Origin: a virus
Length of the DNA: 22,535 nt
Reading direction: 5' to 3' (one strand)
IMG/VR virus record: IMGVR_UViG_3300027741_000289
Coordinates: 1-22,535 of that record
The position numbers and the translations under genes were made by a program. The notes under the pieces are model-generated. The model did no database searches and was not told where the DNA came from. It was given only the letters and a program-made list of their open reading frames with translations. Below, piece by piece: positions 4,893 through 22,535 of the stretch (positions are counted from its first letter, which is position 1; each line of letters begins with the position of its first letter).

Positions 4893-6605
4893 TTATGTTC
4901 TAATAAAACTGATTTTGTAGGTTAATGTAGTACTCTCACCAGCAGTGTATTCAATATCACCTGTGGTGCTGTTGGCCTGTAGTGCAAAATCCATGCCGTC
5001 ACTTTGATTGTATTCATCGTCCCAGGTATACGAACCCAAGAAATTGTTTACATGTAGTACGCCATTGCGTACCGCACCAGTTTGTTGTACCGAGTAAGTG
5101 ACAGTGAAGTTTGTGGTAATACCATAATCTAGATACTGAACCCCCACACTGGTCATTGACATGGCGGCATCCAATGCCGTTGTAACAGCACTGCGTTCTG
5201 TTGATAGACCGTTGGTGATACCGTTTCTGTCTGCACCCACTACCACACAATCATGACCGTTGGTTTCCACATTAGGAACTCCATGGTCGGTGGTAAGATA
5301 GTTATCAAATACATCACCCATGCTGTAGTGACCATTGGACAAGAATTCAATGGCCGGAACTAATGGGCCATCACCGGCTCTATAGCCATAGGCTGCACCA
5401 GCAAACGAATTTGATGAGGTGGTCACATTTTTAGCTGATTCGCCAACTATGATAGATTGTGCACCGCTGTATCTAAAATAATTGCCCACGATGCTGACGC
5501 CGTAAGTGACATAGTTTCCATCTATCTGGAATTGAGGAGCATCAACTCCAAGATTGATATGATGGTAACATTGATCAAAGTAACTGCTGGTAATTTCAAG
5601 ATTGCGGATTTCACCCACAGTTTGAATACCATAGTTCATGCGTGTGATTTCACAGTCGTGTATTCTAACATCGCGAACAGCTTTGTAGTCGGACCATCCA
5701 GTCAACAGCACAGCGCCCATGCCAACGTCTACGCCAGGATCCGTACGATTGGTATAATAGTTGTCTGTTCCTGACCCATCATCATTGTAGTCAATTAGGT
5801 CGCCTTGAAACAAACAGTTGGACAACACAATGGTTGTTCCGCCATCGGCCTGGAACACTGGTTGATCATAGGTGTCGGCTGTCTGATAGAATCCAATATC
5901 GCTCACATGATATTCGAGACTGTAAGGTCTAACACCATTTACACGAGCACCATAATATTGACCTGATTGCCCAAATTGATCAACGACCAAAATCATGGCG
6001 CCGGTGTCGGTTAGATAAGTTGATGTCAATTCATTGCCGGTGTCGTACACTGTGTTTTTGCGAGGAATATTTCTAGCAATAATTGTACTAGATGTTTTAC
6101 CTTCACCTTGAATACGTGTAAACGGAGGAAGTTTGATAGTATCTGTAATAAGGTAAGTGCCGGCCGGGAAGTAAATTGTTCTATGTGTGATACTGCTGCC
6201 ACCTGCACTGGCTGTGCCTAAGGGCCGATCAAGAGCACGTTGTATGGCCGCGGTATCATCAGCAACTCCATCACCTACCGCACCAAAGTCACGTACACTA
6301 ACAAAGTCATCTAGTTTGTCTTGTAAGGTACGAATAATGGGATTGTTGGCGTCTGGTCCAGTTAAAACTTGGAAACCGGCCAACAAGCCTTTGAATGTGT
6401 AATTGCGACCCAGTGACAGCACATCACTGTATTCTGTAAGAATCTCTGTGACACCTGTGGTAGGTGCGCCTTCTTCTACGGTACCATTGCCGATAAACAA
6501 TCGTCGTTTGTCAACACTCCAACCCAGCTCTGCACTGGCCAATTGCGGAAAGTTTTCTTGAAGTCCTCGACGATGCTGTATTCTCGAGATTTGCACTACT
6601 GCCAT
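4893..6605 (-). CDS. Tail spike / tail fibre with pectate-lyase-type beta-helix
   Basis: A 570-residue virion protein. Residues 1-60 form a short N-terminal module (QHRRGLQENFPQLASAELGW, then RRLFIGNGT) of the kind found at the start of several T4-like tail proteins, probably for virion attachment. Residues 101-180 match the pectate-lyase-3 entry: VRDFGAVGDGVADDTAAIQ, then TIYFPAGTYLIT and RIQGEG. Repeated beta-helix rungs follow to about residue 430, then a beta-rich C-terminal domain. Such proteins bind and often cleave host surface polysaccharide. The catalytic site cannot be read from sequence alone, so enzyme activity is inference. The ATG at 6605 has GGAAC upstream, and a late-like promoter lies in the 30-base gap before it. 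Confidence 0.88.
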   Translation of the reverse strand: MAVVQISRIQHRRGLQENFPQLASAELGWSVDKRRLFIGNGTVEEGAPTTGVTEILTEYSDVLSLGRNYTFKGLLAGFQVLTGPDANNPIIRTLQDKLDDFVSVRDFGAVGDGVADDTAAIQRALDRPLGTASAGGSSITHRTIYFPAGTYLITDTIKLPPFTRIQGEGKTSSTIIARNIPRKNTVYDTGNELTSTYLTDTGAMILVVDQFGQSGQYYGARVNGVRPYSLEYHVSDIGFYQTADTYDQPVFQADGGTTIVLSNCLFQGDLIDYNDDGSGTDNYYTNRTDPGVDVGMGAVLLTGWSDYKAVRDVRIHDCEITRMNYGIQTVGEIRNLEITSSYFDQCYHHINLGVDAPQFQIDGNYVTYGVSIVGNYFRYSGAQSIIVGESAKNVTTSSNSFAGAAYGYRAGDGPLVPAIEFLSNGHYSMGDVFDNYLTTDHGVPNVETNGHDCVVVGADRNGITNGLSTERSAVTTALDAAMSMTSVGVQYLDYGITTNFTVTYSVQQTGAVRNGVLHVNNFLGSYTWDDEYNQSDGMDFALQANSTTGDIEYTAGESTTLTYKISFIRT

Positions 6606-6614
6606 AATTCGTTC

Positions 6615-6639
6615 CTAAATACTTGTATTGTGTATTTAG
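6615..6639. repeat. Inverted repeat in the nuclease/tail-spike gap
   Basis: CTAAATAC at 6615-6622 and GTATTTAG at 6632-6639 are perfect 8-base inverted arms around a 9-base loop. There is no U-run, so it is not a standard terminator. Each arm contains a TAAATA core like the late promoters elsewhere in the window. Confidence 0.6.
6632..6639 (-). promoter_or_regulatory. Possible late promoter for the tail spike gene
   Basis: On the minus strand this reads CTAAATAC, which contains the TAAATA core of the T4-type late promoter. It lies 27 bases before the tail-spike ATG at 6605 and overlaps the stop codon of the nuclease gene. Spacing would give a short leader of about 20 bases that includes the GGAAC ribosome binding site. 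Confidence 0.45.
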
Positions 6640-7334
6640 TTCATCCTGTAATACTGCTCTACTCGTTTCATCCATTCTGTGTGCCAGTAGGCAAATTCAT
6701 CAGGACCCAGTTCAAACTCTAGGTATTGCGGCGTTTCTGATTGGTCTCGGGGTTTGACACACATGAGAATAACACCCGTGTTAATGTCAGTTCCGTGGGT
6801 TTCGTTGTGTGCTGCCGCATAGGCTGCCAACTGTATAAAGTAATCACCAATGTATTCGCGCTTCTTGACCTTGTTACTCTGCTTGAAGTCCATGATAGCG
6901 GGCCGACCTTTCCATACTCCCACAAGATCTGTGGTACCAGCATATAATCCACTATAATACAGGGGAACTTCTGAACCCCAGTATTCGTTGGCATGACACA
7001 AGCCTTTGAGTATGACTTCAGCAGCCATGAACCACGAGGGCTGTGCAAACGGATTTGAGGGGAAATCGCCAATGTCATCTTCTTTGACATAACGTTCCAA
7101 GTAGGTGTGCATACGTGTGCCACGATTGGCAGCTTCTGTAACAATCTGTTGTGCCCGATCTTCGCCCACTGCCCGACGCCAATTGGCCAGAGCTTGACGG
7201 CTTTCTTCGCTTTTGGTACGATCTAGGATAGTGGTAACGCTGGGAACTTTGCTACCATCTGGTAATGCATAGTGGCGTTTACCTTCAACACTTTCTCTTG
7301 CAAGAGGCGTGTAATCATATTTTTTGATAATCAT
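6636..7334 (-). CDS. RecB/Cas4-like PD-(D/E)XK nuclease
   Basis: A 232-residue single-domain nuclease. The RecB-family motifs appear in order: G72-T-x-x-H76, E122, D136 (YAGTTDLVG), D149-F-K151 (IMDFKQS) and Q168-x-x-x-Y172. These residues bind two metal ions and cut DNA, so an exonuclease or DNA-end-processing role in replication or recombination is likely. Cas4 and AddB relatives hold an Fe-S cluster with four cysteines, but here only two cysteines are present (in GLCHAN and LMCVKP), so a cluster is unlikely although iscA and iscU lie directly upstream. The ATG at 7334 shares one base with the iscA stop (TAATG), which implies coupled translation. The exact substrate is unknown. Confidence 0.87.
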   Translation of the reverse strand: MIIKKYDYTPLARESVEGKRHYALPDGSKVPSVTTILDRTKSEESRQALANWRRAVGEDRAQQIVTEAANRGTRMHTYLERYVKEDDIGDFPSNPFAQPSWFMAAEVILKGLCHANEYWGSEVPLYYSGLYAGTTDLVGVWKGRPAIMDFKQSNKVKKREYIGDYFIQLAAYAAAHNETHGTDINTGVILMCVKPRDQSETPQYLEFELGPDEFAYWHTEWMKRVEQYYRMN

Positions 7335-7657
7335 TAAACTCTAAAACTTTCTCCGCAACCACATCGGTCGCGTTCGTTGGGGTTACGAAATTCAAAGCCT
7401 TCATTTAGGCCTTGTCGCACATAATCTACTGTCATATTTTGTAGGTAAACGTTATCTTTGGCATTGACCAAGACTACAAAATCAGGCTGTGCATAATTGA
7501 TCACATACTGTTCTGGCGTGTACTCTCGTACATATTCTAACACATAAGCCAGTCCTGAGCAACCTGTAGTTTTTACACCAAGTCGTATACCGGCATGGCC
7601 CGTGGCATCCAATAGTTTTTTTATTTTTGTTCGTGCCGCATCAGTTAATGAGATCAT
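7334..7657 (-). CDS. iscA: A-type Fe-S cluster carrier (IscA/ErpA/HesB family)
   Basis: A 107-residue protein of normal A-type carrier length. It has the three cysteines that bind iron or a cluster: C33 in TTGCSGLAYV, and C99 and C101 in CGCGESF at the C terminus. A-type carriers receive clusters from a scaffold such as IscU and deliver them to client proteins. The start overlaps the end of iscU by 17 bases and the stop overlaps the nuclease ATG by one base, so the three are probably translated together. ErpA and SufA share these motifs, so the subfamily is uncertain; the iscU neighbour favours an IscA role. No cysteine desulfurase, HscA/HscB or ferredoxin gene is in the window, so sulfur must come from the host. 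Confidence 0.94.
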   Translation of the reverse strand: MISLTDAARTKIKKLLDATGHAGIRLGVKTTGCSGLAYVLEYVREYTPEQYVINYAQPDFVVLVNAKDNVYLQNMTVDYVRQGLNEGFEFRNPNERDRCGCGESFRV

Positions 7658-8030
7658 GCTTTTTGCGATAGTCGGCTACTGCGGCTTTGATGGCGTCTTC
7701 GGCGAGGATACTGCAATGTATTTTAACAGGTGGAAGAGCCAACTCCTCGGCGATGTCGCTGTTTTTAATACTTGAAGCCTGGTCCAACGACATTCCTTTG
7801 ACCAGCTCTGTGATGAGCGAGGAGGAAGCGATTGCAGATCCGCATCCATATGTTTTGAAACGAGCATCTCTAATAATACCATGTTCATCTACCTTTATCT
7901 GTAATTTCATCACGTCACCACAAGCTGGTGCGCCGACCATGCCGGTGCCCACATCAGCATCGTTGGCGTCAAATTTGCCCACGTTGCGTGGATTCTCATA
8001 ATGGTCAATTACTTTATTTGAATATGCCAT
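7641..8030 (-). CDS. iscU: Fe-S cluster assembly scaffold IscU
   Basis: A 129-residue protein almost collinear with E. coli IscU from the first residue (MAYSNKVIDHYENPRNVG). All cluster ligands are present with the same numbering: C37 and D39 in APACGD, C63 in YGCGSA, H105 and C106 in KIHCS. The LPPVK motif recognised by the chaperone HscA is intact at residues 99-103. IscU builds 2Fe-2S clusters with sulfur from IscS and hands them on. The intact partner motifs suggest this copy works with host IscS and HscA/HscB. The ATG shares one base with the stop of a 43-residue ORF upstream. Such close similarity to a bacterial housekeeping gene points to capture from a host, with function kept. Confidence 0.97.
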   Translation of the reverse strand: MAYSNKVIDHYENPRNVGKFDANDADVGTGMVGAPACGDVMKLQIKVDEHGIIRDARFKTYGCGSAIASSSLITELVKGMSLDQASSIKNSDIAEELALPPVKIHCSILAEDAIKAAVADYRKKHDLIN

Positions 8031-8161
8031 TATCTTATGTCTTCGGTGTGTTTGTGTTTGGCGGATTTACGAAGAATCTTGAACCAAATCTTTTTTTCTT
8101 TTGCACTATCGTGTGCAAAGATGGCTCTGTATAGTTTGTGTCTTAGTTGTTGTAGTTTCAT
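8030..8161 (-). CDS. Small basic protein, 43 residues, upstream of iscU
   Basis: A short open frame beginning MKLQQLRHKLYRAIFAHD and ending KHKHTEDIR, rich in Lys, Arg and His, probably a single amphipathic helix with a basic tail. Its ATG overlaps the stop of the secreted-protein gene (ATGA, bases 8158-8161), and its TAA shares one base with the iscU ATG (TAATG). Exact start and stop coupling on both sides is the same layout seen between certain genes in this phage and is the main reason to call it real. I do not recognise a family. It could be a small IscU partner or a coupling peptide; function is unknown. Confidence 0.68.
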   Translation of the reverse strand: MKLQQLRHKLYRAIFAHDSAKEKKIWFKILRKSAKHKHTEDIR

Positions 8162-8478
8162 TGTGAGCAGGTCCTTGTTCTAGTAATAGTGCCATCAGAG
8201 TTTTGTACTTCGGTCCAGGAGGTGCAGTTTTGTGTTTGCCCATAGTACACAGTGGCAGGAGGCACAGGAGCGGGTTGTACGATCACCGGTTGTTGTACGA
8301 TCACCGGAGGTTGGTTACGTGCTATTTCATAGCCAATCACACCACCAATGATGGTGGGGGCTACCCAACCGTAATTGTATCCTGGATAGTATCCATGATG
8401 GTGATGATACCTGAAGCCTGGTTGAGCCAATGCACAAGTGCTGACCAATATCAATGTTAACGCTAGGATTTTTTTCAT
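8158..8478 (-). CDS. Secreted His-rich, Pro-rich small protein
   Basis: A 106-residue protein with a clear signal peptide: MKK, a hydrophobic core to about residue 14, and a likely signal-peptidase I site after ALA18. The mature part has an HHHH-rich segment at residues 25-28, a Tyr/Gly/Pro stretch, a short Gly-rich hydrophobic segment (APTIIGGVIGYEIA) and a duplicated PVIVQ unit. The C-terminal end (NCTSWTEV...TRTCSQ) has two cysteines that could form a disulfide. V-S-T-C15 resembles a lipobox but has Thr at the last position, so a lipoprotein is less likely. An AAAGGAGA ribosome binding site sits 7 bases before the ATG. It probably acts in the host periplasm; metal binding by the histidines is inference. 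Function is unknown. Confidence 0.8.
   Translation of the reverse strand: MKKILALTLILVSTCALAQPGFRYHHHHGYYPGYNYGWVAPTIIGGVIGYEIARNQPPVIVQQPVIVQPAPVPPATVYYGQTQNCTSWTEVQNSDGTITRTRTCSQ
8274..8307. repeat. Direct repeat inside the secreted-protein gene
   Basis: Two perfect 16-base copies of GTTGTACGATCACCGG occur at 8274-8289 and 8292-8307, offset by 18 bases. The offset keeps the frame and encodes the doubled PVIVQ unit, so it looks like a recent six-codon tandem duplication. Confidence 0.85.
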
Positions 8479-8547
8479 AACTATCTCCTTTAAGACTGTA
8501 CATATACAACGCCACAGAGGGCAGAAATGTTGACTGTCTTATACAGT

Positions 8548-8555
8548 TATTTACA
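8548..8555 (-). promoter_or_regulatory. Possible late promoter before the secreted-protein/iscU cluster
   Basis: The minus strand reads TGTAAATA, a one-region match to the late TATAAATA element, 70 bases before the ATG at 8478. The 88-base gap 8479-8566 is the only untranslated space upstream of the 8478-6636 cluster, so a promoter for iscU/iscA should be here. No convincing sigma70 -35/-10 pair was seen. Confidence 0.4.
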
Positions 8556-8566
8556 TTGTACAGGAA

Positions 8567-8977
8567 TTAACTACGATTTGCAAGAGCCGATTTAGCCATT
8601 GCGCCCACGGTCTTTTCTGGTGGGGTTCTGGGTGCGTTCATGTCTCCAGGCACAGCCGAAAAATCATCTTCGGCATTGCTCTGTAGATAAACATATTTGG
8701 TTCCATTGTCATCATCACTGATGTCTTTGACAAAGTTTTTGACGGTGTCATTGGTTTTGAATGCGTCCAATAGAGCTTCAAGATTAAAGGCTTCAGAACC
8801 AGGAATGCCTTGTACCATGTTGATCAAGGCATCTACACGAATCTTTGGCACCAGGTGTTGGTTACCTGCACGACCTTTTAGGAACTCCAAGGCCGAAATA
8901 AGATTGGCGTCGCCGCGATCAACCGCTTCGTCCTCAATCATCTCAGCATGAAAGTCTGAGAATTCGCGTAGTCTCAT
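8567..8977 (-). CDS. Phage protein of unknown function, probable head/prohead component
   Basis: A 136-residue acidic, mostly helical protein beginning MRLREFSDFHAE, with a Pro/Ala-rich tail after residue 110. Its N terminus shares a pattern with several neighbours (M, Arg/Lys, Leu/Ile, x, Glu, hydrophobic) and looks like the capsid-targeting peptides of T4 internal proteins. The ATG shares one base with the stop of the preceding gene (TAATG), and GAGAGCG upstream can act as a ribosome binding site. That preceding gene has a strong late promoter, so the pair are probably late structural or assembly proteins. I recognise no domain of known function. Confidence 0.72.
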   Translation of the reverse strand: MRLREFSDFHAEMIEDEAVDRGDANLISALEFLKGRAGNQHLVPKIRVDALINMVQGIPGSEAFNLEALLDAFKTNDTVKNFVKDISDDDNGTKYVYLQSNAEDDFSAVPGDMNAPRTPPEKTVGAMAKSALANRS

Positions 8978-9687
8978 TAGCGACGCTCTCTGCCCAGTGC
9001 CTCTGGGCCGCCTGCGGCAGCATCAGTGGCAGCAAACTCGTCACCAGCATCGAGGTCGCTAACCGGAGGCACACCACCAGGAACTTCGCCTGCGGCCATA
9101 CCAGCCATTTCGTCTCCGCCTAGGCTGCTGCCCATTCCCATGTCCATGGGCTGTGCAACTTGTTCACCAGCCAATGCACGACTTGCTGTGTCGGCTGTTT
9201 CTCTGGCAGCACCCAGTTGTGCAGACAGATCAGTGATCATGGGAGTCATTGCTGTTTTGAATTGTTCAGCTTGTTGGGCGCCAATTTGGTCACGGATGCT
9301 GTCCAACAGGGCCGGCATTTGCTCGCTTTGTAGTTTGCTGATTTTTTCTAACATGTCTTGGACACTGTCAACAATGTTCTTGGCAGCCAGGATGGCTTCT
9401 GATTTGGCCATTTCGCTTTCAGTAACAAACTGTTGCTGATTTTCACGCATCCAGCTGTGTATGCTTTCGCGTACCATCAGCATTTCCATGTAGGTAGAGT
9501 TTTTCTCTACGGCGCCGGCGCCGTGGCTACGACGAACTTGGTCAATGCTTTCGCTTAGACCACTGGCTAGTCGGTAGGCTTTTTTAAACGTCAGTTTATC
9601 AAAGTCAATGGCATAACCAAAGCGACTTTCGACCACTTGGTTTAGTTTTTTTGCGGAAGGCTTGGTGCCCATTTCTTGTAGTCTCAT
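8977..9687 (-). CDS. Prohead core/scaffold-type structural protein of T4-like phages (putative)
   Basis: A 236-residue protein. Residues 1-80 (MRLQEMGTKPSAKKLNQVVE, later YMEMLMVRESIHSW) are helical and conserved in appearance with uncharacterised structural proteins of T4-like marine phages. Residues 95-175 form a long coiled-coil-like stretch (SVQDMLEKISKLQSEQMPAL). The tail is rich in Gly, Ala, Met and Asp and is probably disordered. Long helices, an acidic disordered tail and a short MRLQEM N terminus fit a prohead core component, but sequence alone does not prove this. Its start overlaps the end of the 9684-10232 gene by 4 bases (ATGA). A perfect TATAAATA late promoter lies 35 bases before the ATG, inside the upstream gene. 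Confidence 0.7.
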   Translation of the reverse strand: MRLQEMGTKPSAKKLNQVVESRFGYAIDFDKLTFKKAYRLASGLSESIDQVRRSHGAGAVEKNSTYMEMLMVRESIHSWMRENQQQFVTESEMAKSEAILAAKNIVDSVQDMLEKISKLQSEQMPALLDSIRDQIGAQQAEQFKTAMTPMITDLSAQLGAARETADTASRALAGEQVAQPMDMGMGSSLGGDEMAGMAAGEVPGGVPPVSDLDAGDEFAATDAAAGGPEALGRERR

Positions 9688-10232
9688 AGTAGTCTTTCCT
9701 GAACTTTCAAATATTTAGCAGTATTTATAGTTTTTTCTAATTCTTGATTTGCATAATCCAGTTGATATCGAGCATTTATGTAGCGCATATTGGCTAGATC
9801 TGCACGAAAATAGTCTTGCTTTTTTAGACTGGTGCGGCGAGTATTGGCATAGGTATCTTGATCTAGCTCCAATCTGCTGACTTCTGCATCAGCTGTCAGT
9901 ATGTTTCTAGCTAGATTCAGTCGGTTGTCCTGTAGGGCCAAACAATAAAATATCGCACTCAGCTTACGACCAAAATCATGAACCAATTCATCATTGCGAT
10001 CCAATACACGCCAACAGTGCTTGCCCACACTCAATACCTTGTAATAACCAATTAAAAACCCGCGGTTGCCCAGGGGCAAACACACGGGTAAGTTTTCGTC
10101 TATGGTTAATCTTTTTAGTTCTGTTTCGGTCCAGTATTTTACGTATTGCGTGATTACATCTGCGGCAAGATCAATGCGTTGATCTGCCAGCGTTTTTTTA
10201 TTTCTTTTTGTAGGTGATTCGGCCTGTTTCAT
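9684..10232 (-). CDS. Conserved phage protein of unknown function
   Basis: A 182-residue soluble protein. Residues 1-20 are basic (SPTKRNKKT). Residues 25-100 look like an alpha/beta core with the phrase LPLGNRGFLIGYYKVLSVGK, and the C-terminal 80 residues are a helical, possibly coiled-coil region rich in Leu, Asn, Arg and Tyr. Its start lies 35 bases inside the preceding small gene, with no good ribosome binding site, so translation is likely coupled. Its last four bases overlap the next gene (ATGA). The neighbours are late assembly genes, which makes a role in virion assembly the simplest guess. Function is unknown. Confidence 0.68.
   Translation of the reverse strand: MKQAESPTKRNKKTLADQRIDLAADVITQYVKYWTETELKRLTIDENLPVCLPLGNRGFLIGYYKVLSVGKHCWRVLDRNDELVHDFGRKLSAIFYCLALQDNRLNLARNILTADAEVSRLELDQDTYANTRRTSLKKQDYFRADLANMRYINARYQLDYANQELEKTINTAKYLKVQERLL
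9722..9729 (-). promoter_or_regulatory. T4-type late promoter (perfect TATAAATA)
   Basis: The minus strand reads TATAAATACTGC, identical to the T4 late promoter core. It lies 35 bases upstream of the ATG at 9687, within the 3' end of the upstream gene. A second TAAATA follows at 9711-9716. Confidence 0.7.
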
Positions 10233-10401
10233 TTATTCTGTATAGTATGTCTTTGTTTACCAGGTGATTTGCAATCATTTGTTCTCTGGGTGACAAATCT
10301 TGTTTTTGTACTTCTGAGTGATGTTCGAATATGCCCAATACGTCTGCTTCTTCATTGGTGATTGGCACACTAATTTTATTTACTAGTTCTACAATTTTCA
10401 T
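10198..10401 (-). CDS. Small conserved phage protein of unknown function
   Basis: A 67-residue protein beginning MKIVELVNKISVPITNEEAD and ending ETGRITYKKK. Between them is a helical phrase, LSPREQMIANHLVNKDILYR, with the size and pattern of a small winged-helix or helix-turn-helix unit; this is suggestive only. The start (MKIVEL) fits the N-terminal pattern shared by several genes here. Its ATG follows the stop of the membrane-protein gene by 2 bases, in an A-rich context without a ribosome binding site. It overlaps the next gene by 35 bases. A DNA-binding or structural role cannot be separated from sequence. Confidence 0.68.
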   Translation of the reverse strand: MKIVELVNKISVPITNEEADVLGIFEHHSEVQKQDLSPREQMIANHLVNKDILYRINETGRITYKKK

Positions 10402-10403
10402 TT

Positions 10404-10661
10404 TTATTTGTTTATGAAGTTGACCAAGATCACAATGATACCTGTGGTCAATGCGCCAACCAAGGCTGTGCCTATGGTGATTATGGTTTTGTTTGCTGAT
10501 TCAGGAGCACCGGACAAGCTCTCTCTAATGAACATGAGATGTTCTTCCAGTTTACCAACCTTGTGTTCAAGATTGTTCAATTTATTTTCTAGATTGGTGT
10601 AGCGTAGAGCACACAGCTCCACGTGTGTTTCCAAACTTTCTTTTTCAATTTCGGCGGCCAT
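10404..10661 (-). CDS. XhlA-like small membrane protein (coiled coil plus one TM helix)
   Basis: An 85-residue protein. Residues 10-50 are a heptad-rich coiled coil (LENKLNNLEHKVGKLEEHL). Residues 59-82 form one transmembrane helix (TIITIGTALVGALTTGIIVI), followed by a short basic end. This layout matches the haemolysin XhlA-type proteins of phages, some of which work with holins in lysis. It could equally be a tail or ejection component, since no endolysin or second holin gene is in the window. AAGGA lies 8 bases before the ATG at 10661, and a late-like TAAATA element lies about 40 bases upstream. The start is firm because an upstream ATG is out of frame. Confidence 0.72.
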   Translation of the reverse strand: MAAEIEKESLETHVELCALRYTNLENKLNNLEHKVGKLEEHLMFIRESLSGAPESANKTIITIGTALVGALTTGIIVILVNFINK

Positions 10662-10699
10662 GGCTCATATCCTTGTTAGTTGTGATATCTGATATAGTG

Positions 10700-10707
10700 T
10701 ATTTAAC
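10700..10707 (-). promoter_or_regulatory. Possible late promoter for the XhlA-like gene
   Basis: The minus strand reads GTTAAATACAC, sharing TTAAATA with the late element, 38 bases before the ATG at 10661. It lies in the 79-base gap after the 10741-11172 gene. Confidence 0.45.
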
Positions 10708-10740
10708 AATGAGCCATGACAAGTGAAGATTAGGTAGATA

Positions 10741-11172
10741 TCAATTACTATTTAAGTCAATGCGGCCTAATCTAAAAAACACGTTTTTAATAGCACCTTT
10801 GGTATAGAATATGGGTAATATGAATCGGGCTGTTTCTTCAAGACCCATGATGATCGGCACTTCGTCAAAATCTTGTTCCAGGTAGTGCAAGACCTTTTCG
10901 TCCTTGAGCCAGACATCGGAATGTTCTGTACTGAAAGACCAGAACCATACTCGATGCACACCCGAATACATTTCTCCAAAGTCGCTGCCTTCTAGGTCAA
11001 CATCTTGATATATGGGGCCAATCATGTCCAACGGCTGAGCACGTATACCAATGCATTGTAGTACTGTTTCCCAATTACGTTGTTGGTCACGTGCCTGATC
11101 ACCATCGCCCCTGGTTCTGGTCACGCCTGTTTGTGTGATGTCCACTAGAGTAATGCCGGTGATGTGTTGCAT
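10741..11172 (-). CDS. Conserved phage protein of unknown function
   Basis: A 143-residue protein starting MQHITGITLVDITQTGVTR. It continues NWETVLQCIGIRAQP and has an aromatic middle (RVWFWSFSTEHSDVW) and a C-terminal end FRLGRIDLN. It resembles uncharacterised proteins I associate with T4-like phages. I chose the ATG at 11172, because a frame extending to 11226 would run through the terminator hairpin and the promoter. A perfect TATAAATA ends 5 bases before this ATG, so transcription should start at or very near the start codon and the message would be leaderless. No ribosome binding site is seen. Expression late in infection, and hence a virion or assembly role, is inferred from the promoter. 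Confidence 0.72.
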   Translation of the reverse strand: MQHITGITLVDITQTGVTRTRGDGDQARDQQRNWETVLQCIGIRAQPLDMIGPIYQDVDLEGSDFGEMYSGVHRVWFWSFSTEHSDVWLKDEKVLHYLEQDFDEVPIIMGLEETARFILPIFYTKGAIKNVFFRLGRIDLNSN

Positions 11173-11177
11173 ACAGA

Positions 11178-11185
11178 TATTTATA
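11178..11185 (-). promoter_or_regulatory. T4-type late promoter (perfect TATAAATA) with leaderless geometry
   Basis: The minus strand reads TATAAATATCTGT and then ATG. In T4 late promoters transcription starts about 6 bases after this element, which here is the A of the ATG at 11172. It follows directly after the terminator of the upstream gene, so it starts a separate transcription unit. Confidence 0.75.
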
Positions 11186-11190
11186 GTCGT

Positions 11191-11215
11191 AAAAAAAGGC
11201 ACTAAAAAGTGCCTT
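11191..11215 (-). terminator. Rho-independent terminator after the 11234-11644 gene
   Basis: On the minus strand, AAGGCACT at 11215-11208 pairs perfectly with AGTGCCTT at 11203-11196 around a TTTT loop. It is followed by five further T residues, seven counting the stem end. It lies 19 bases after the stop codon and is the clearest terminator in the window. Confidence 0.92.
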
Positions 11216-11233
11216 CTTTGGATCAAGTAGCTA

Positions 11234-11644
11234 TTAGGCTAGTTTGATACCACCTGTGCTACTGACCACTGCGGCTGTTGCATCAACTGCACTGTATGCA
11301 CCAATGTTAGAACTCAGCAAGCGGATGGCTGCTTGTAAAGTAGCGGCTGTGTCTGAACTGCGTTCTGTGATAACGCTCAACTGACTGCCTGTATCAACTT
11401 GATATGCTATAACTGTTGCATTTGCCGCAACAACGTTCAACAATGTTTCAACTGCACCAGAAACGCCAGAACCGTTTGGTCCGCCAAGTTCTGCTGCCAA
11501 GTTACCGCCTGTAGCGGTGATCTTGAATGCTTGGATTGGGGCCGCAATGCCTGTGTTGATGATGGTTGCGTTTGAAAAGTGACGACCTGCGCCAATGTTA
11601 AATACACCACCGGTGTTGCCGTTTGCTCTTTGGAATACTGCCAT
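11234..11644 (-). CDS. Small abundant virion protein candidate
   Basis: A 136-residue protein with very low charge, rich in Ala, Gly, Thr, Val and Ser (MAVFQRANGNTGGVFNIGAG, then many short beta/loop and Ala-rich segments), with no cysteine. This composition is typical of capsid decoration or other surface proteins of virions. It stands as its own transcription unit: a GATAAATA late element, a strong AGGAGA ribosome binding site 6 bases before the ATG, and a strong terminator just after the stop. That combination suggests high, independent late expression. No known domain can be named, so the structural role is inference from composition and expression signals. Confidence 0.75.
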   Translation of the reverse strand: MAVFQRANGNTGGVFNIGAGRHFSNATIINTGIAAPIQAFKITATGGNLAAELGGPNGSGVSGAVETLLNVVAANATVIAYQVDTGSQLSVITERSSDTAATLQAAIRLLSSNIGAYSAVDATAAVVSSTGGIKLA

Positions 11645-11683
11645 TTTATTTCTCCTGTAATGGTTGCGTAATACGCATGCAAA

Positions 11684-11691
11684 TATTTATC
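11684..11691 (-). promoter_or_regulatory. Late promoter for the 11234-11644 gene
   Basis: The minus strand reads GATAAATATTTG, a 7 of 8 match to TATAAATA. It lies 40 bases before the ATG at 11644, in the 66-base gap after the ligase-like gene. Confidence 0.6.
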
Positions 11692-11710
11692 ATCTGCAAC
11701 AAAAACCAGC

Positions 11711-12847
11711 TCAATTAGGTGTCCAACGATGTCTAGGTACCAGTTTGGTATCTCGATATACCCAACCCTCGCCGCCAGGAACACCTTCAGTTGAGGTACG
11801 TATCTGCGGTGTTTGTTGATCCAATTGATCAATGATGTCGTTCTTGATATCTCTAATGGATTCAACTAAGCCAAATACCGCCTTCAAACCATCGGGGTTG
11901 GTTTCTATTTTGTCCACAAAGGCCTGCATCTTTTTAGGGCCCAGTGTGGTCTGTACCCAAGGTAAAAACTGCGATTCAAGACCTTCCAAGTTGCCTTCTT
12001 TGCTCTTGGTGTTAACAAACGCATAGATATCACTGCCGGGACTGGACAACCCGGGTACACCCGATAAAAATGCATCCACCGCTTTGCGTGTACGAGCCGA
12101 CAGTTTTAGTGACTTGACATAGTTGGCGTCAATCACTGCACCTTGATCTGCAAAGTAAGATCCCAGTATGACCAACTGTGAACTGGCAGAGGGATAGTAT
12201 AGTCCTTGACTGGTCCGGAATTGTTCTAACCGAGGCATCTTGCCTGCATCCTTGTCGCCAAAACGTTTTAGATATTTGTGTACTACCACTGCGGCTTTGG
12301 CTTTGTACAGCAGATTTCCCAGTTCAACGGGATTACCTTGATCATCGGCCACTGGTACCATATAGGTCACTTTGTTGGGAGTAAACACCAGCTCTTGACG
12401 TTTGACATCGTATGGTTTGCCTGGATAAAACAACATGTCACCAAAGAAATAACCACGAAAGTTTTCTGGAGTACCGGCTTCAAATATGTGCCAAGCAGAA
12501 GCCATGTCTGCGGCAAACTGTGCTCGCCAATCTTCACCCTTGCCACGACTCATGATAAACTGTTCTAGTTCGTCGGGACTGGTAGCAAAGCCGCCTTGAT
12601 CTGCTTTGTCCCAGTTGTTTTTGCCCACAAACACAAACTGACCGTTGGGCTCTCTGCCCCAGTACACCGTGGGGTTGCCGTCCCACTTTAGACTGTAGTC
12701 TTTGCCAGTGGCTTCTGTGGCCATGTGACGTAAGTATTCCAGCGCACGGTCTGCGCCTGCAGATCCTTCTGTGAACACAAGATCCTCTAGGTGATTAAAC
12801 TCGCGTCCAATCTTGGCAGCTTCTACTAGTAATTCTCTGGCTCTCAT
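11711..12847 (-). CDS. Ligase/nucleotidyltransferase-like protein with KxDG motif, possible capsid-targeted protein
   Basis: A 378-residue protein. LKWDGNPTVYWG places K54-x-D-G57 like motif I of covalent nucleotidyltransferases (DNA/RNA ligases, capping enzymes), where Lys carries AMP. YFFGDMLFY near residues 133-141 resembles motif III. E360-G-W-V-Y-R with K368 at the C terminus resembles motifs IV and V. The motif order is right, but I-to-IV spacing is longer than in small ligases. I chose the ATG at 12847, since it overlaps the upstream stop (ATGA). This start gives MRARELLVEAA, which looks like the T4 internal-protein targeting peptide with an LxE prohead-protease site. It is adjacent to and coupled with a polymerase-beta-type nucleotidyltransferase. 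Enzymatic activity is inferred from motifs only. Confidence 0.68.
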   Translation of the reverse strand: MRARELLVEAAKIGREFNHLEDLVFTEGSAGADRALEYLRHMATEATGKDYSLKWDGNPTVYWGREPNGQFVFVGKNNWDKADQGGFATSPDELEQFIMSRGKGEDWRAQFAADMASAWHIFEAGTPENFRGYFFGDMLFYPGKPYDVKRQELVFTPNKVTYMVPVADDQGNPVELGNLLYKAKAAVVVHKYLKRFGDKDAGKMPRLEQFRTSQGLYYPSASSQLVILGSYFADQGAVIDANYVKSLKLSARTRKAVDAFLSGVPGLSSPGSDIYAFVNTKSKEGNLEGLESQFLPWVQTTLGPKKMQAFVDKIETNPDGLKAVFGLVESIRDIKNDIIDQLDQQTPQIRTSTEGVPGGEGWVYRDTKLVPRHRWTPN

Positions 12848-15360: not shown

Positions 15361-16795
15361 CAGTTTTGTTCTTTAAGCCTGCTAGCATTGCCTTGAGTTT
15401 GTGACTTTGTGCTTCACCGCCCACTGGGGCTTCCAAACTGAATCCTGGTTTGGGCTCGGCCTTGACCCATTTGACCGGTTCAGCGCCATCTTCAGTGGGC
15501 ATGGGTTTGCCCTTGATCTGCGTCATGATACTGCCAATTCTAGACCCTGTGGTACCATCTCCTGCACTTTCGCCTTCGTCTGTGATACGCATGGTATCAA
15601 TGTTGTAGCTCAAATCAACCTTTTGTCCAACACCTGTGCTACTACGAGACTTCATACACTGGATTTGATAGCGTCCACGTTCTTTCATGGCTCTGCTGGT
15701 AAAGATACCAAACACGTTGTCTGCGGTGTTGATCTTACTAATACCGCCCGATATATGACTATGGTCAAATTCAACTTCTTCAACTGCTGATCGATTCAAC
15801 TGTGACGCCGTGACCATGAGCATACCTAATTCTTTGGCCAGATTACGTAGTTCTTCACTCACATACTTGTCCTTGACAAACAGATCATTGGGCGATACTT
15901 TGGCACTGACCGGCATCAACAAGTCCAGGTAGTCGATCATGATAAAGTCTACACTACGCCCTGTCTGTATCTGATACTCTTTCAAATAAGCACGAATGTC
16001 ATTGATGTTGCTCTGTGCCGGCATACCTTTGACTTGATATGTGCCTGACTTCTTGCCCACCATCTTGACCTTGAGTGTGGCAGTATCAATGTCCTTGCGT
16101 ATGTCCTTGGTACTCATGTTGGACAACATGGCATCTGTACGCAGACTGGTCAATTCTTCGCTCAACTCCAGTGTGATATAAACACCGTTGAGTCCAGATT
16201 GTACCCAGTTCAAGGCAATGTTCATCATGACCAAGGATTTACCTGAACCCGATCCTCCAGCGAAGATGTTGAGTTCACCACGACTGAATCCACCATACAA
16301 CAGTCGATCCAGTTGTGGCCATCCTGTGCTAACCTGTCCACCGGCGTTGAAGTATCTGTTGATGCGTTCTGCAGGATCTGCAAAATAGTCTGTGCCCATG
16401 TCTCTGGTAAGACTGATGTGTACTGCATCCTTGATCAGTTTTTCCACAGGATCATATTCGCCTTTTTCAATCAGGTCTGCGGCTTTTAAAATAGCACGTT
16501 CCAATTCTTGTCTGCGACTGAATCCTTCAAACTCTTCCAAGAACCAGTCATAGTGTCCTTTATCCAAATCCGGCACTGCCTGTAGTTCTACACCAGTGAC
16601 CGCTCGGATCTGGTCACGTGTTGGTATGGTGCGATGACTATCTGTATGTGTTTTGATAAACTCTGCAACTGCTCTTAGACTGCGATCAAAATTTTCTGAG
16701 TTAAAGATGTTTTGTACCCGCACATAGGCTGTGGCATCTTCCAGCATCATTTCTAGAAATAATCTCTGTAGGTCTACTGTGTATTCTTTGTTCAT
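15356..16795 (-). CDS. Replicative DNA helicase, DnaB/T4 gp41 family
   Basis: A 479-residue hexameric helicase. Residues 1-130 form the N-terminal helical domain, followed by a RecA-type motor. Walker A is GGSGSGKS at 180-187, Walker B is FIMIDYLDLL with D288, and the polar sensor motif MVTASQLNRSA follows near residue 330. The extreme C terminus is a charged, flexible tail ending LKNKTE. It unwinds the fork and recruits primase on the lagging strand. The ATG overlaps the stop of the SGNH-like gene (ATGA), and primase lies one gene upstream, so primosome genes are nearly adjacent, as in T4. The size agrees with T4 gp41 (about 475 residues). Confidence 0.94.
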   Translation of the reverse strand: MNKEYTVDLQRLFLEMMLEDATAYVRVQNIFNSENFDRSLRAVAEFIKTHTDSHRTIPTRDQIRAVTGVELQAVPDLDKGHYDWFLEEFEGFSRRQELERAILKAADLIEKGEYDPVEKLIKDAVHISLTRDMGTDYFADPAERINRYFNAGGQVSTGWPQLDRLLYGGFSRGELNIFAGGSGSGKSLVMMNIALNWVQSGLNGVYITLELSEELTSLRTDAMLSNMSTKDIRKDIDTATLKVKMVGKKSGTYQVKGMPAQSNINDIRAYLKEYQIQTGRSVDFIMIDYLDLLMPVSAKVSPNDLFVKDKYVSEELRNLAKELGMLMVTASQLNRSAVEEVEFDHSHISGGISKINTADNVFGIFTSRAMKERGRYQIQCMKSRSSTGVGQKVDLSYNIDTMRITDEGESAGDGTTGSRIGSIMTQIKGKPMPTEDGAEPVKWVKAEPKPGFSLEAPVGGEAQSHKLKAMLAGLKNKTE

Positions 16796-18646: not shown

Positions 18647-19291
18647 ATGAGCGACATCCTAACCCCACACGAACACTTTCCTAGCGTGATTTATTCGGTC
18701 GACAAGCCAGAATTTTTAGACGCTGTACGAAAAGTAAGCCAGCGGTATTTGGCACAAAGAAAAAACAGTGAGCCCAAACCAGATCCCTTGTATCCTATAC
18801 AGACCAATGGGTACCCACACGAACCCCAATTGTCCGCATTTACCGGCTATATTGCACAGGCGGCCTGGACCATACTCAACAGTCAAGGACACGACGTGGC
18901 CAATCTTGGCACCTACATACAAGAAATGTGGACGCAAGAACACAATCAATACAATGGACACGATGAACACATACATAGTCGTGGTGCCCAAATCACCGGA
19001 ATGTATTTTTTAGACTGTCCAGAAAACGGGTGTAAGGTTGCTGTACACGATCCACGCTATGGCAAGAATCAGATCAACTTGCCCGAAGCAGATCTAGGCA
19101 AAATTACCTTGGCCAGTAGTACAGCATTGTTTGTGCCCAAACCTGGCATGATGTATTTGTTTAATTCTTGGTTGCCGCACAGCGTGACAAGAACCGCTAT
19201 CAAAAGTCCCACACGTCTAGTGCATTTTAATCTAGGTGTTCGAGACTTGCCGCCAAAGACTGCACCTGTGCCAGATGTCACTGTGATCTAA
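18647..19291 (+). CDS. 2OG-Fe(II) oxygenase-like protein
   Basis: A 214-residue protein. The candidate iron ligands are in GHDEHIHSRGAQITGMYFLD (H108 and H110 or the nearby acidic residues) and in WLPHSV (H178). R190 in SPTRLVHFN would bind 2-oxoglutarate. This is the double-stranded beta-helix arrangement of the phage 2OG-Fe(II) oxygenase family, where HxH, a distal His and a following Arg are typical. Such proteins are frequent in aquatic T4-like phages, and their substrates are mostly unknown. It is the first plus-strand gene, starts in the divergent gap, and shows no ribosome binding site before the ATG. The downstream methyltransferase-like and QueC-like genes suggest a modification role, but this is inference. 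Confidence 0.75.
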   Translation: MSDILTPHEHFPSVIYSVDKPEFLDAVRKVSQRYLAQRKNSEPKPDPLYPIQTNGYPHEPQLSAFTGYIAQAAWTILNSQGHDVANLGTYIQEMWTQEHNQYNGHDEHIHSRGAQITGMYFLDCPENGCKVAVHDPRYGKNQINLPEADLGKITLASSTALFVPKPGMMYLFNSWLPHSVTRTAIKSPTRLVHFNLGVRDLPPKTAPVPDVTVI

Positions 19292-19292
19292 A

Positions 19293-19739
19293 GTGTCACG
19301 AGAGTTTTGGCAGAGTCTTGTTTGGCCAGCGGCACCCAACCTAGATGACTATGATGTATTCAAAAATTTCTGCTCAGGGCGTGTGTTGCTGTTAGGTAGC
19401 ACACGACTTTTACTGCCTTTGTGTACTGAAGCCTGGGATCTTGAACCTGTGTATGATGATCCCAAAATCCGGCAAAGAGATTGGTTCAGCATGGATAGTT
19501 ATTGGGATACTGTCATCATCGATGGCGGTCTGAGCTACGGCAAGGAGTTTGCAGATCGTTTGTTGCCCACGGTATTAAATAACTGTGATAGGTTTGTTAG
19601 TCGTACATTTTTGAACCCTTCGTGGCCCACTACCTATGCTGTCTATTTCCCACGTGCAGAAGAATTAACACCAGTGCCCCAAGAACACAAAATAAACCAA
19701 GTTTACTCATTTTACATATGGAATCAAAAACAATCTTAG
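19293..19739 (+). CDS. Methyltransferase-like Rossmann protein (GTG start)
   Basis: A 148-residue protein beginning at a GTG one base after the oxygenase stop. GRVLLLGSTRLLLPLCTEAW near residue 29 resembles motif I of class I SAM-dependent methyltransferases, DLEP the acidic end of strand 2, and WDTVIIDGGLSYG the strand-4 motif. The chain is short, and the usual GxGxG loop is only GST, so a true catalytic role is uncertain; it may be a degenerate or minimal member. The 3' end overlaps the QueC-like gene by 22 bases in another frame. Substrate unknown. Confidence 0.55.
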   Translation: MSREFWQSLVWPAAPNLDDYDVFKNFCSGRVLLLGSTRLLLPLCTEAWDLEPVYDDPKIRQRDWFSMDSYWDTVIIDGGLSYGKEFADRLLPTVLNNCDRFVSRTFLNPSWPTTYAVYFPRAEELTPVPQEHKINQVYSFYIWNQKQS

Positions 19740-20311
19740 CCATGTATTCCGGAGGACTGGATAGTCTAGGAATGATATATCATATGCTAACTGATGCCGC
19801 ATATCAGGCGTATGATCTACACATACATCATGTTCATAACCGAAACATAGAAAATCGAGATCGGGCCGAAGCCGTGGTAGTTGAGCAAGCTCTAGCAGAG
19901 CTACGCAGACTGGGCTTTGAGTTTGAGTACAGCACCAGTGCCATTGCCGCACCGACCTATAACCAACAGTTCTTGTACGACTCAGACACCATGAACTTTT
20001 TTGCCGGATACATTTGTAGTGTCAATCCCGCAATAACAAAAGTGGCCATGGGCATGAATGCTACCGACAGTAATCATGCGCTAGAAGAGCGTAGACACCG
20101 TGCCAATAACATATTGGGTGCATTTACTTCAGTAGAGAAAATATATCCTGTGTTGAACTTGACCAAACGTGAGATATACGATTCGTTGCCCGAATCACTA
20201 AGAGATAAGTTTTGGAGTTGTCGAACTCCTATTTACAACGAAACAACAATTGATGCTTGCGGCCGATGCAAGAGTTGTTTACAAATAGCAAGAGCCGGAA
20301 TTGAGGATTAA
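19718..20311 (+). CDS. QueC-like PP-loop ATPase
   Basis: A 197-residue protein. The PP-loop that binds ATP is SGGLDS at residues 11-16. The C-terminal zinc site of QueC is preserved as C168, C181, C184 and C187 (SCRTP, then ACGRCKSCL). QueC makes preQ0, the 7-deazaguanine precursor; many phages use such genes to modify DNA or tRNA. No QueD, QueE, FolE or transglycosylase gene is in the window, so the substrate could also be another carboxylate activated by ATP. It is somewhat shorter than E. coli QueC (231). I chose the ATG at 19718, inside the previous gene, because the PP-loop strand starts right after it; the frame back to 19622 adds 32 residues unlike any domain. Confidence 0.75.
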   Translation: MESKTILAMYSGGLDSLGMIYHMLTDAAYQAYDLHIHHVHNRNIENRDRAEAVVVEQALAELRRLGFEFEYSTSAIAAPTYNQQFLYDSDTMNFFAGYICSVNPAITKVAMGMNATDSNHALEERRHRANNILGAFTSVEKIYPVLNLTKREIYDSLPESLRDKFWSCRTPIYNETTIDACGRCKSCLQIARAGIED

Positions 20312-20812: not shown

Positions 20813-22535
20813 TTAGTTTTGAACCATCCACTTGTCTGTTTCCACTTTAAGGATTGTGACATAAGTGTCTGCTGGTATATTAATACTGGCATCTGCACCA
20901 AACTTGCTCAGTATCAGGGTAGTGACTCCACTGTTGGCTGACTGTACAGTGGTCGAGTGTGAGCTGCCTGTGACTAAGGTAATGGTTGTTCCTACAGGAA
21001 ACTCTACACTGGCATTGGTCGGAACCAACACTGCACCTGTACCTGTTTTGTAAATGTGTTTGCCAATGTCTGTCAGTGCCAGAGTATAATCACCGTTGGC
21101 CGACTGCAAATTCTGTTCCAATACACCGGCTGCAGAAACTGTATAAGTCAACTCATGCGTCTCTTCATCGTAATAGACACTGTATGTTGTATTGGCAATA
21201 TCTTCACGCACAGGGTTGATGTACAAACCTTGGTTGGTTGTATTCAATGTGGAGCTACTGGCATTGATTACAATACTATTTGTCATTTGACAGCATTGAC
21301 CAGCTTTGTAGCCGATGGCCACTGCATATTCGCCTTGGCAGTTTTCACCAGCATAACTACCAATGGCCACTGCGTTTTGGCATTGGCAGCATTGTCCTGC
21401 ATGATTGCCAATGGCCACCGATGAATACGATTGGTTATATTGACCAGCTTGATAACCGATGGCCACAGCATGATTGCTTTGGCAGCAATAACCAGCTTGG
21501 TGTCCAATGGCCACTGTGTCTTCGCCTTGACACGCATTGCCGGCGGCACGACCGATGGCAATGGCATCAGAATTTTGATTATAACTGGCAGCACATGATC
21601 CGATAGCCACCGAGTGATCGCCTTGGCCTCCACTGCGGCAACTGCCACAGCCGCAGCAGTCGCAATAGCCTTGACCTGCATATTCACCAATGGCCACAGC
21701 CCCATTGCCTTGACAGTACCGTCCAGCGTACGGTCCAATAGCCACTGATTGGCAGCATTGGCAATATTGTGCGGCATAGTTGCCGATGGCCACTGACTGT
21801 TCACACTGGCAGCAATATCCAGCCCAGTTGCCAATGGCCACTGATGCATAGCACTGATTGTACTTGCCGGCATAGTGACCAATGGCCACAGCATGATTGT
21901 TTTGATTACGATAACCAGCATTGTGTCCAATGGCCACGGTGTCGTCGCCTTGACAGCAATAACCGGCGGCTCGCCCAATGGCAATGGCACTACAGCCTTG
22001 GTTACATCCGCAACAGCCGCTGCCTGCACAAACACCAATCGCAATTGAATGGCAACCTTGGCAGTATTCACCAGCACCTTGACCAATGGCAATGGACCCT
22101 TGACCTTGGCAATAATGTCCTGCATCTGCACCCACAGCAACCGCATATTGTTCTTGGCAATACATACCGGCTCTACGACCCACTGATGTGGCGTGATAAC
22201 CTTGGCAGCAATAACCTGCTAAGTGTCCAACTGCTGTGGCACCTGTGCCTTGACTGCAATTACCAGCGGCACGACCAACTGCGGTAGCAACATAACTTTG
22301 ATCGCAATTACCTGCACACGAGCCAATGGCCACCGAATGCTCACCTTGGCCCCAACGTCCTGCGTATTCACCAACTGCGACCGAACCGTAGCTTTGATTA
22401 CACTCGCCGCCACCGTAGCCAATGGCCACTGCACGATTTTCTTGATTTTGTTCACCAGTATAAGTACCAATGGCCACAGCATCATTACCTTGATTATAAC
22501 TGCCAGCATGGTAACCAACTGCAATTTGATTGTTG
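20813..22535 (-). CDS. Cys-rich YadA-head-like repeat fibre protein, 5' end missing
   Basis: At least 574 residues are visible, and the frame is open at the right edge, so the true start is outside. About 25 units of 16 residues follow the pattern [A/S]-V-A-I-G-x-x-A-G-x-x-x-Q-G-x-x, as in the left-handed beta-roll heads of trimeric adhesins. I count 40 cysteines, all in the repeat part, often as CCQ or CxCC at the turn positions; two units carry longer Cys-rich insertions. The C-terminal 150 residues are non-repetitive and Cys-free (GLYINPVRED, TLALTDIGKHIY, KVETDKWMVQN), like trimerising ends of T4-like tail fibres. A receptor-binding or adhesin role on the virion is inferred. The many cysteines are unusual for an extracellular fibre of this type. 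Confidence 0.85.
   Translation of the reverse strand, partial: NNQIAVGYHAGSYNQGNDAVAIGTYTGEQNQENRAVAIGYGGGECNQSYGSVAVGEYAGRWGQGEHSVAIGSCAGNCDQSYVATAVGRAAGNCSQGTGATAVGHLAGYCCQGYHATSVGRRAGMYCQEQYAVAVGADAGHYCQGQGSIAIGQGAGEYCQGCHSIAIGVCAGSGCCGCNQGCSAIAIGRAAGYCCQGDDTVAIGHNAGYRNQNNHAVAIGHYAGKYNQCYASVAIGNWAGYCCQCEQSVAIGNYAAQYCQCCQSVAIGPYAGRYCQGNGAVAIGEYAGQGYCDCCGCGSCRSGGQGDHSVAIGSCAASYNQNSDAIAIGRAAGNACQGEDTVAIGHQAGYCCQSNHAVAIGYQAGQYNQSYSSVAIGNHAGQCCQCQNAVAIGSYAGENCQGEYAVAIGYKAGQCCQMTNSIVINASSSTLNTTNQGLYINPVREDIANTTYSVYYDEETHELTYTVSAAGVLEQNLQSANGDYTLALTDIGKHIYKTGTGAVLVPTNASVEFPVGTTITLVTGSSHSTTVQSANSGVTTLILSKFGADASINIPADTYVTILKVETDKWMVQN
21287..22535 (-). repeat. Tandem 48-base coding repeats of the fibre gene
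   Basis: Roughly 25 in-frame 48-base units continue to the right edge. A higher-order copy is visible: the units starting RAAG-YCCQGDD (about 21963-21991) and RAAG-NACQGED (about 21540-21568) begin matching four-unit blocks 423 bases apart. This equals eight units plus a 39-base insertion, suggesting block duplication followed by divergence. Confidence 0.88.

Follow-up and report, generated by a model that had tools for sequence, protein, structure and literature searches.

A phage tail fibre with a cysteine-rich VAIG-repeat shaft and related fibres of uncultured phages

Several described systems share parts with the fibre analysed here. The head repeats of YadA-type trimeric adhesins (PF05658) resemble its shaft in the VAIGxxAG motif, in having about 16 residues per rung and in forming an extracellular fibre, although the shaft scores beneath the Pfam cut-off for that family. 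The VAIG repeats of phage and algal-virus fibres (PHROG 4636) share motif, rung length and fibre setting, and fibres of this repeat type are normally near-devoid of cysteine; the VAIG arrays of Tenacibaculum phages PTm1 and pT24, for example, contain 0 and 1 Cys, unlike the shaft described below. With the Mtd_N / HylP fibre family the protein has its N-terminal anchor in common, while HylP-family shafts and tips differ, and we know of no Cys-rich solenoid in that family.

Metal ions have been solved in the T4 gp37 fibre, which has HxH iron sites, and have been proposed for the fibre of Alteromonas phage R22Y (PMC11705849). Both of these fibres use pairs of histidines, whereas ours carries Cys in its outer turns and, on direct reading of the window protein's translation, has no HxH motif; the likeness lies in metal within a phage fibre, which is here only proposed. 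Metallothioneins hold thiolate clusters with CC and CxC spacings, and such clusters are found in our shaft too. The Cys-rich antifreeze proteins of insects are beta-solenoids with regularly placed Cys in fixed disulfides, whereas Cys positions turn over in the present family. We claim homology to neither.

The fibre gene and its shaft

The stretch of DNA analysed (22,535 nucleotides, hereafter the window) comes from a virus of bacteria in an environmental sample, and is a tailed-phage fragment that also encodes a class I ribonucleotide reductase, a helicase nearest to those of jumbo phages such as PA5oct (48%), a primase and IscU- and IscA-like genes. The fibre gene (22534..20813, minus strand) is a frame of 573 aa that continues past the end of the window. 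A near-identical contig from another sample (L001) provides the missing start; the full protein of 630 aa begins MATKIQFRRDTAGNW..., and the 57 additional N-terminal residues include one further Cys. Over 6,685 bases of overlap, L001 and the window show one synonymous difference (TGT/TGC, at a Cys codon). The features of the region are as follows.

20813..22534, minus strand: tail-fibre gene; 573 of 630 residues in the window, the N-terminal 57 lying past its edge
21275..22534, minus strand: shaft; a predicted beta-solenoid of 25 VAIGxxAGxxxQ repeats and 420 aa, with 40 Cys
21986..22045, minus strand: repeat extended by a Cys-rich insert of 4 residues, IAIGVCAGSGCCGCNQGCSA, with 5 Cys; L040 and L044 have counterparts of the insert
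21611..21697, minus strand: repeat extended by a Cys-rich insert of 13 residues, VAIGEYAGQGYCDCCGCGSCRSGGQGDHS, with 5 Cys; L006 and L044 have counterparts of the insert
20816..21274, minus strand: C-terminal part without Cys, comprising the SIVINAS...INPVR junction and a tip domain common to other phage fibres
20562..20780, minus strand: small downstream ORF of 72 aa, MPQFNITATSATANVNNVIGQ...; the gene that follows on this strand

The protein is a phage tail fibre with an Mtd_N anchor. In the full protein the N-terminus matches the Mtd_N domain (PF18454; E 2.8e-17, 62.8 bits against a curated cut-off of 26.3), the family profile matches the N-terminal domain of the solved phage hyaluronidase (HylP) fibre (6x3m, E 2.5e-6; HylP matches range to 0.007), and the shaft matches a PHROG tail spike profile (E 3e-18). 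Judged by its profile, Mtd_N is the domain that docks the fibre on the tail. The C-terminal domain is probably the host-contacting tip; these 153 aa resemble other phage fibre tips, Cys-free ones among them (L151, L049-L052), with 39.6% identity to L151 over 154 aligned columns (E 5e-27). The 72-aa downstream ORF, which recurs with identical sequence in L001 (2485-2703), may be no part of the fibre. A bacterial adhesin of the YadA autotransporter kind was considered and rejected because the phage anchor lies within a phage contig; the full protein has no Pfam matches besides Mtd_N and the repeats, and so no C-terminal outer-membrane anchor.

A first-pass annotation of the gene had described 40 Cys in a VAIGxxAG repeat array, stopping abruptly at a non-repeat C-terminal part. 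Our count agrees exactly: all 40 Cys of the 573 aa lie between residues 45 and 415, every one within the 25 repeats (residues 4-420), the final 153 aa contain none, and the motifs CCQ, CQCCQ and YCDCCGCGSC are found as quoted. The repeats start with IAVG, VAIG or TAVG, and 23 of the 25 are exactly 16 aa long, the other two holding the inserts, in which 10 of the Cys are found. In the regular units the Cys occupy columns 11 (13), 10 (9), 13 (4), 14 (2) and 6 (2). Other window proteins average 0.97% Cys, a frequency at which the binomial probability of at least 40 Cys in 573 residues is 1e-21.

AlphaFold2 models 11 rungs as a regular two-strand solenoid (monomer, pLDDT 87, pTM 0.82), in keeping with the repeat fibre that the annotation had suggested. 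Columns 1-3 (VAI) make up the first strand and columns 11-12 a second, short one; predicted viral homologues match this model. Because 22 of the 40 Cys lie in two neighbouring columns (10 and 11) beside the second strand, they would be expected to line up along the shaft, again as had been proposed. The proposal of a YadA-head beta-roll survives as a resemblance. The YadA head profile (PF05658) scores 23.4 bits on the window part and 19.6 on the full protein, below the Pfam gathering cut-off of 25, so that membership of that family is not assignable. Foldseek of the model gave no significant PDB match, nor did a PDB search with the array sequence give any. The best PDB matches in VIA-align were general solenoids (Z up to 9.7); YadA heads were not among the chains compared, and the absence of a YadA structure from this comparison does not exclude a relation.

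Cysteine-rich and cysteine-poor shafts

IMG/VR was scanned with a Cys-selected pattern (AGxxCQ-4-[VI]A[IV]G), which gave 45 stretches, and with a control pattern in which Asn replaced Cys, which gave at least 120. Among the matches listed for the control scan, 82 arrays had at least six repeats and were counted: 79 contained no more than 2% Cys (63 of these had zero), none lay at 2-4% and three exceeded 4%. The Cys-selected scan contributes about 20 additional rich arrays on several unrelated anchors. Pooled, 23 distinct rich arrays contain 419 Cys in 411 regular units (6,576 residues), while 80 poor arrays, among the matches listed, contain 10 Cys in 719 units (11,504 residues), or 0.09%. The Gln-type VAIG shafts sampled form two classes, rich and poor, with the window's shaft in a separate Cys-rich class. 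The gap at 2-4% is limited to these sampled Gln-type shafts, since wider TTG-type rolls, with TTG for the conserved Gln, have intermediate Cys contents (12/564 in HTVC111P, 44/1508 in AG-345-L05). Marine virus AG-345-L05 (L287, MH319754.1, Kyanoviridae) is cyanophage-like, and its TTG-roll frame of 1,669 residues has 48 Cys. The same DNA pattern as in IMG/VR gave at least 115 stretches in bacterial genomes, with no array of five or more repeats among the matches listed. The literature searched, with most subscription journals outside its reach, yielded no description of cysteine-rich phage fibres.

Within the rich arrays, Cys is confined to exposed, variable turn columns and loop inserts and never enters structural columns. 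It falls at columns 10 (32%), 11 (27%), 14 (12%), 6 (11%), 15 (10%) and 13 (6%), with traces at 5, 9 and 16 and none at 1-4, 7, 8 or 12 in the 411 regular units; at columns 10 and 11 the poor arrays usually have Thr, Asn or Ser. Among the 394 loop-insert residues of rich arrays there are 58 Cys (spacings CC, CxC and CCxCxC), versus 0 in 314 in poor arrays among the matches listed.

Rich shafts are joined to N-termini of six or more kinds, in seven anchor groups that are alike in Cys density (9-14% of variable cells) and unlike in the columns they prefer. The anchor of L001 is also carried by L147, with 0% Cys (48% over 50 aa), and that of L018 by L060, with 0.2% Cys (49% over 98 aa). Given that anchor and tip domains are common to Cys-free fibres, the enrichment is a property of the shaft, and it has probably arisen, or spread, on more than one occasion. 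L018, with 72 units and 74 Cys, is the largest rich example; its fibre (6142-12366, minus strand) is 2,075 aa long, has an alternating super-repeat and shows the Cys motif in a CRQR variant. A fibre in L053 (1-1359) has 18 Cys in the 179 residues of its array and, unlike other fibres, a further 22 in 274 residues outside it.

Comparison with homologues, for which the first-pass annotation had called, bears out Cys richness as a recurrent trait and finds individual Cys moderately conserved. The window protein is 71% identical overall to that of L044; of the 29 aligned Cys, 17 are conserved, compared with 51% for all variable cells, the exchanges being chiefly with Asn and Tyr. Cys density is thus conserved more clearly than single positions, a pattern that fits a redundant network better than one fixed set of disulfides; the moderate conservation of single Cys argues against the fixed disulfide ladder proposed earlier.

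Possible roles of the shaft thiols

The Cys-rich shaft belongs to a broader class found in many other uncultured phages, and suggests a sulphur-bonded or metal-bound stalk. About 25 solenoid rungs would form the shaft between the Mtd_N anchor and the tip, exposing turns enriched in thiols. Within each chain the thiols would follow one another at about one rung (4.8 Angstrom), and they would probably be near those of neighbouring chains in a putative trimer. Our tentative reading, to which we give somewhat less than an even chance, is that these thiols form a redundant network of cross-links and so make the shaft stiffer, most likely through metal-thiolate bonds and next through disulfides. In its likeliest form, soft metal ions (Zn, Cu or Fe) would be coordinated by clustered thiolates, with some His, and the fibre would acquire them while being assembled in the reducing cytoplasm; in the next likeliest, disulfides would be made after lysis. 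We infer the order metal-thiolate cross-linking, disulfide curing, surface adhesion.

Metal is placed first because the CC, CxC and CCxCxC clusters of the inserts and the His enrichment of the main family point to soft metals. Such spacings are typical of thiolate clusters, and fibre assembly occurs in the reducing cytoplasm, where thiols encounter metal before oxygen. His is 4-fold higher in rich arrays than in the poor arrays among the matches listed (p 1e-4), but the strong enrichment is confined to some groups, His making up 6.0% of variable cells in the L001 type, 0.4% in L018/L130 and 0.9% in the listed poor arrays; rungs with a lone Cys, which also speak against our reading, are common (63 of 135), and the Cys-rich records show no surplus of Fe-S or glutaredoxin genes that would favour it. 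Alternatively, the fibre may fold reduced inside the host and, on release to oxic water, be locked by many alternative disulfides joining rungs and chains, a possible but rather doubtful course of events. In the model, Cys of columns 10 and 11 lie beside the second strand, so that neighbours would stack, and redundancy would account for the turnover of single positions. Adjacent-rung pairs (11-11, 14-14, 13-11) are in weak excess; in the L001 family, 11-11 pairs number 27 versus 19 in shuffles (p 0.0075) and 14-14 pairs 6 versus 1.8 (p 0.0035), homologous rungs, and arrays within the family, not being independent. This weak stacking is compatible with metals and disulfides alike. Stacked residues in parallel solenoids have Cb-Cb distances of about 4.8 A, at the upper edge for disulfides, and CC and CCCC runs pair poorly, odd Cys numbers occur per rung and conserved pairs are absent, all of which tells against disulfide curing. 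Disulfides within a rung were rejected: Cys at columns 6 and 11 share a rung 0 times versus 7.1 expected. That avoidance is partly due to the alternating super-repeats of L018/L130, and a same-rung excess of columns 10 and 15 is weak.

The restriction of Cys to variable, surface-type columns and the rapid change of single positions among relatives would also suit a reactive surface, on which exposed thiols either adhere to host or particles through mixed disulfides or metal bridges, or belong to a binding face that diversifies. We consider this improbable, as Cys runs along the entire shaft instead of concentrating at the tip, and the tip domain has none. Far less probable still, and largely refuted, is that Cys simply piled up at tolerant positions through codon bias or drift. 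Tolerant columns are indeed where Cys is found, and its exchanges are commonly with Asn and Tyr, but drift is unlikely because of the gap between the classes (no array at 2-4% among the matches listed) and the near-absence of Cys at the same columns elsewhere (0.09% in the same units of the listed Cys-poor arrays). Furthermore, Trp (TGG) stands at 0.5% in rich and listed poor arrays alike, TGT and TGC are both in use, and the rest of the window's proteins remain at 0.97% Cys.

Strong selection for thiol chemistry at a virus surface is implied by a class whose shafts reach 10% Cys and stand on several unrelated anchors. If metals are bound, such phages would constitute a pool of organic metal ligands that can be counted, and the shaft a thiol counterpart of the iron-in-tail-fibre hypothesis; if disulfides are formed, the fibre would be hardened by oxygen after lysis. 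The most far-reaching version, which we regard as rather unlikely, is a convergent class of fibres with a metallothionein-like shaft, in which at least 120 thiols per trimer would bind tens of soft-metal ions, stiffening the fibre and turning its virions into vehicles for Zn, Cu, Fe or Hg.

Neighbouring genes

The first-pass annotation had speculated on a link between a metal-loaded fibre and the iron genes of the window, where IscA-type (Fe-S_biosyn) and IscU-type (NifU_N) genes are neighbours (7334-8030, minus strand). Our comparison lends it no support: Fe-S and glutaredoxin genes show no excess in the 23 Cys-rich records. NifU_N occurs in 2 of these versus 11 of the 50 Cys-poor records listed, and glutaredoxin in 4 versus 9, the contigs being fragments, and both links were rejected. 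From its presence in 11 of the 50 listed Cys-poor VAIG-fibre records, phage IscU looks common in the set.

Elsewhere in the window, 2OG-Fe(II) oxygenase-like and QueC-like PP-loop genes lie on the opposite strand (18647-20311, plus strand) between structural and replication genes. Within the helicase gene, the last 230 bases shared with L001 (window ~15620-15848, L001 7417-7645) have 63 mismatches, marking a recombination breakpoint, a strain switch or a chimeric contig end. A second fibre (4893-6605, minus strand) has an Mtd_N anchor, a pectate-lyase (tail-spike) body and 4 Cys in 570 aa, so that a single phage bears two very different shafts on the same type of anchor.
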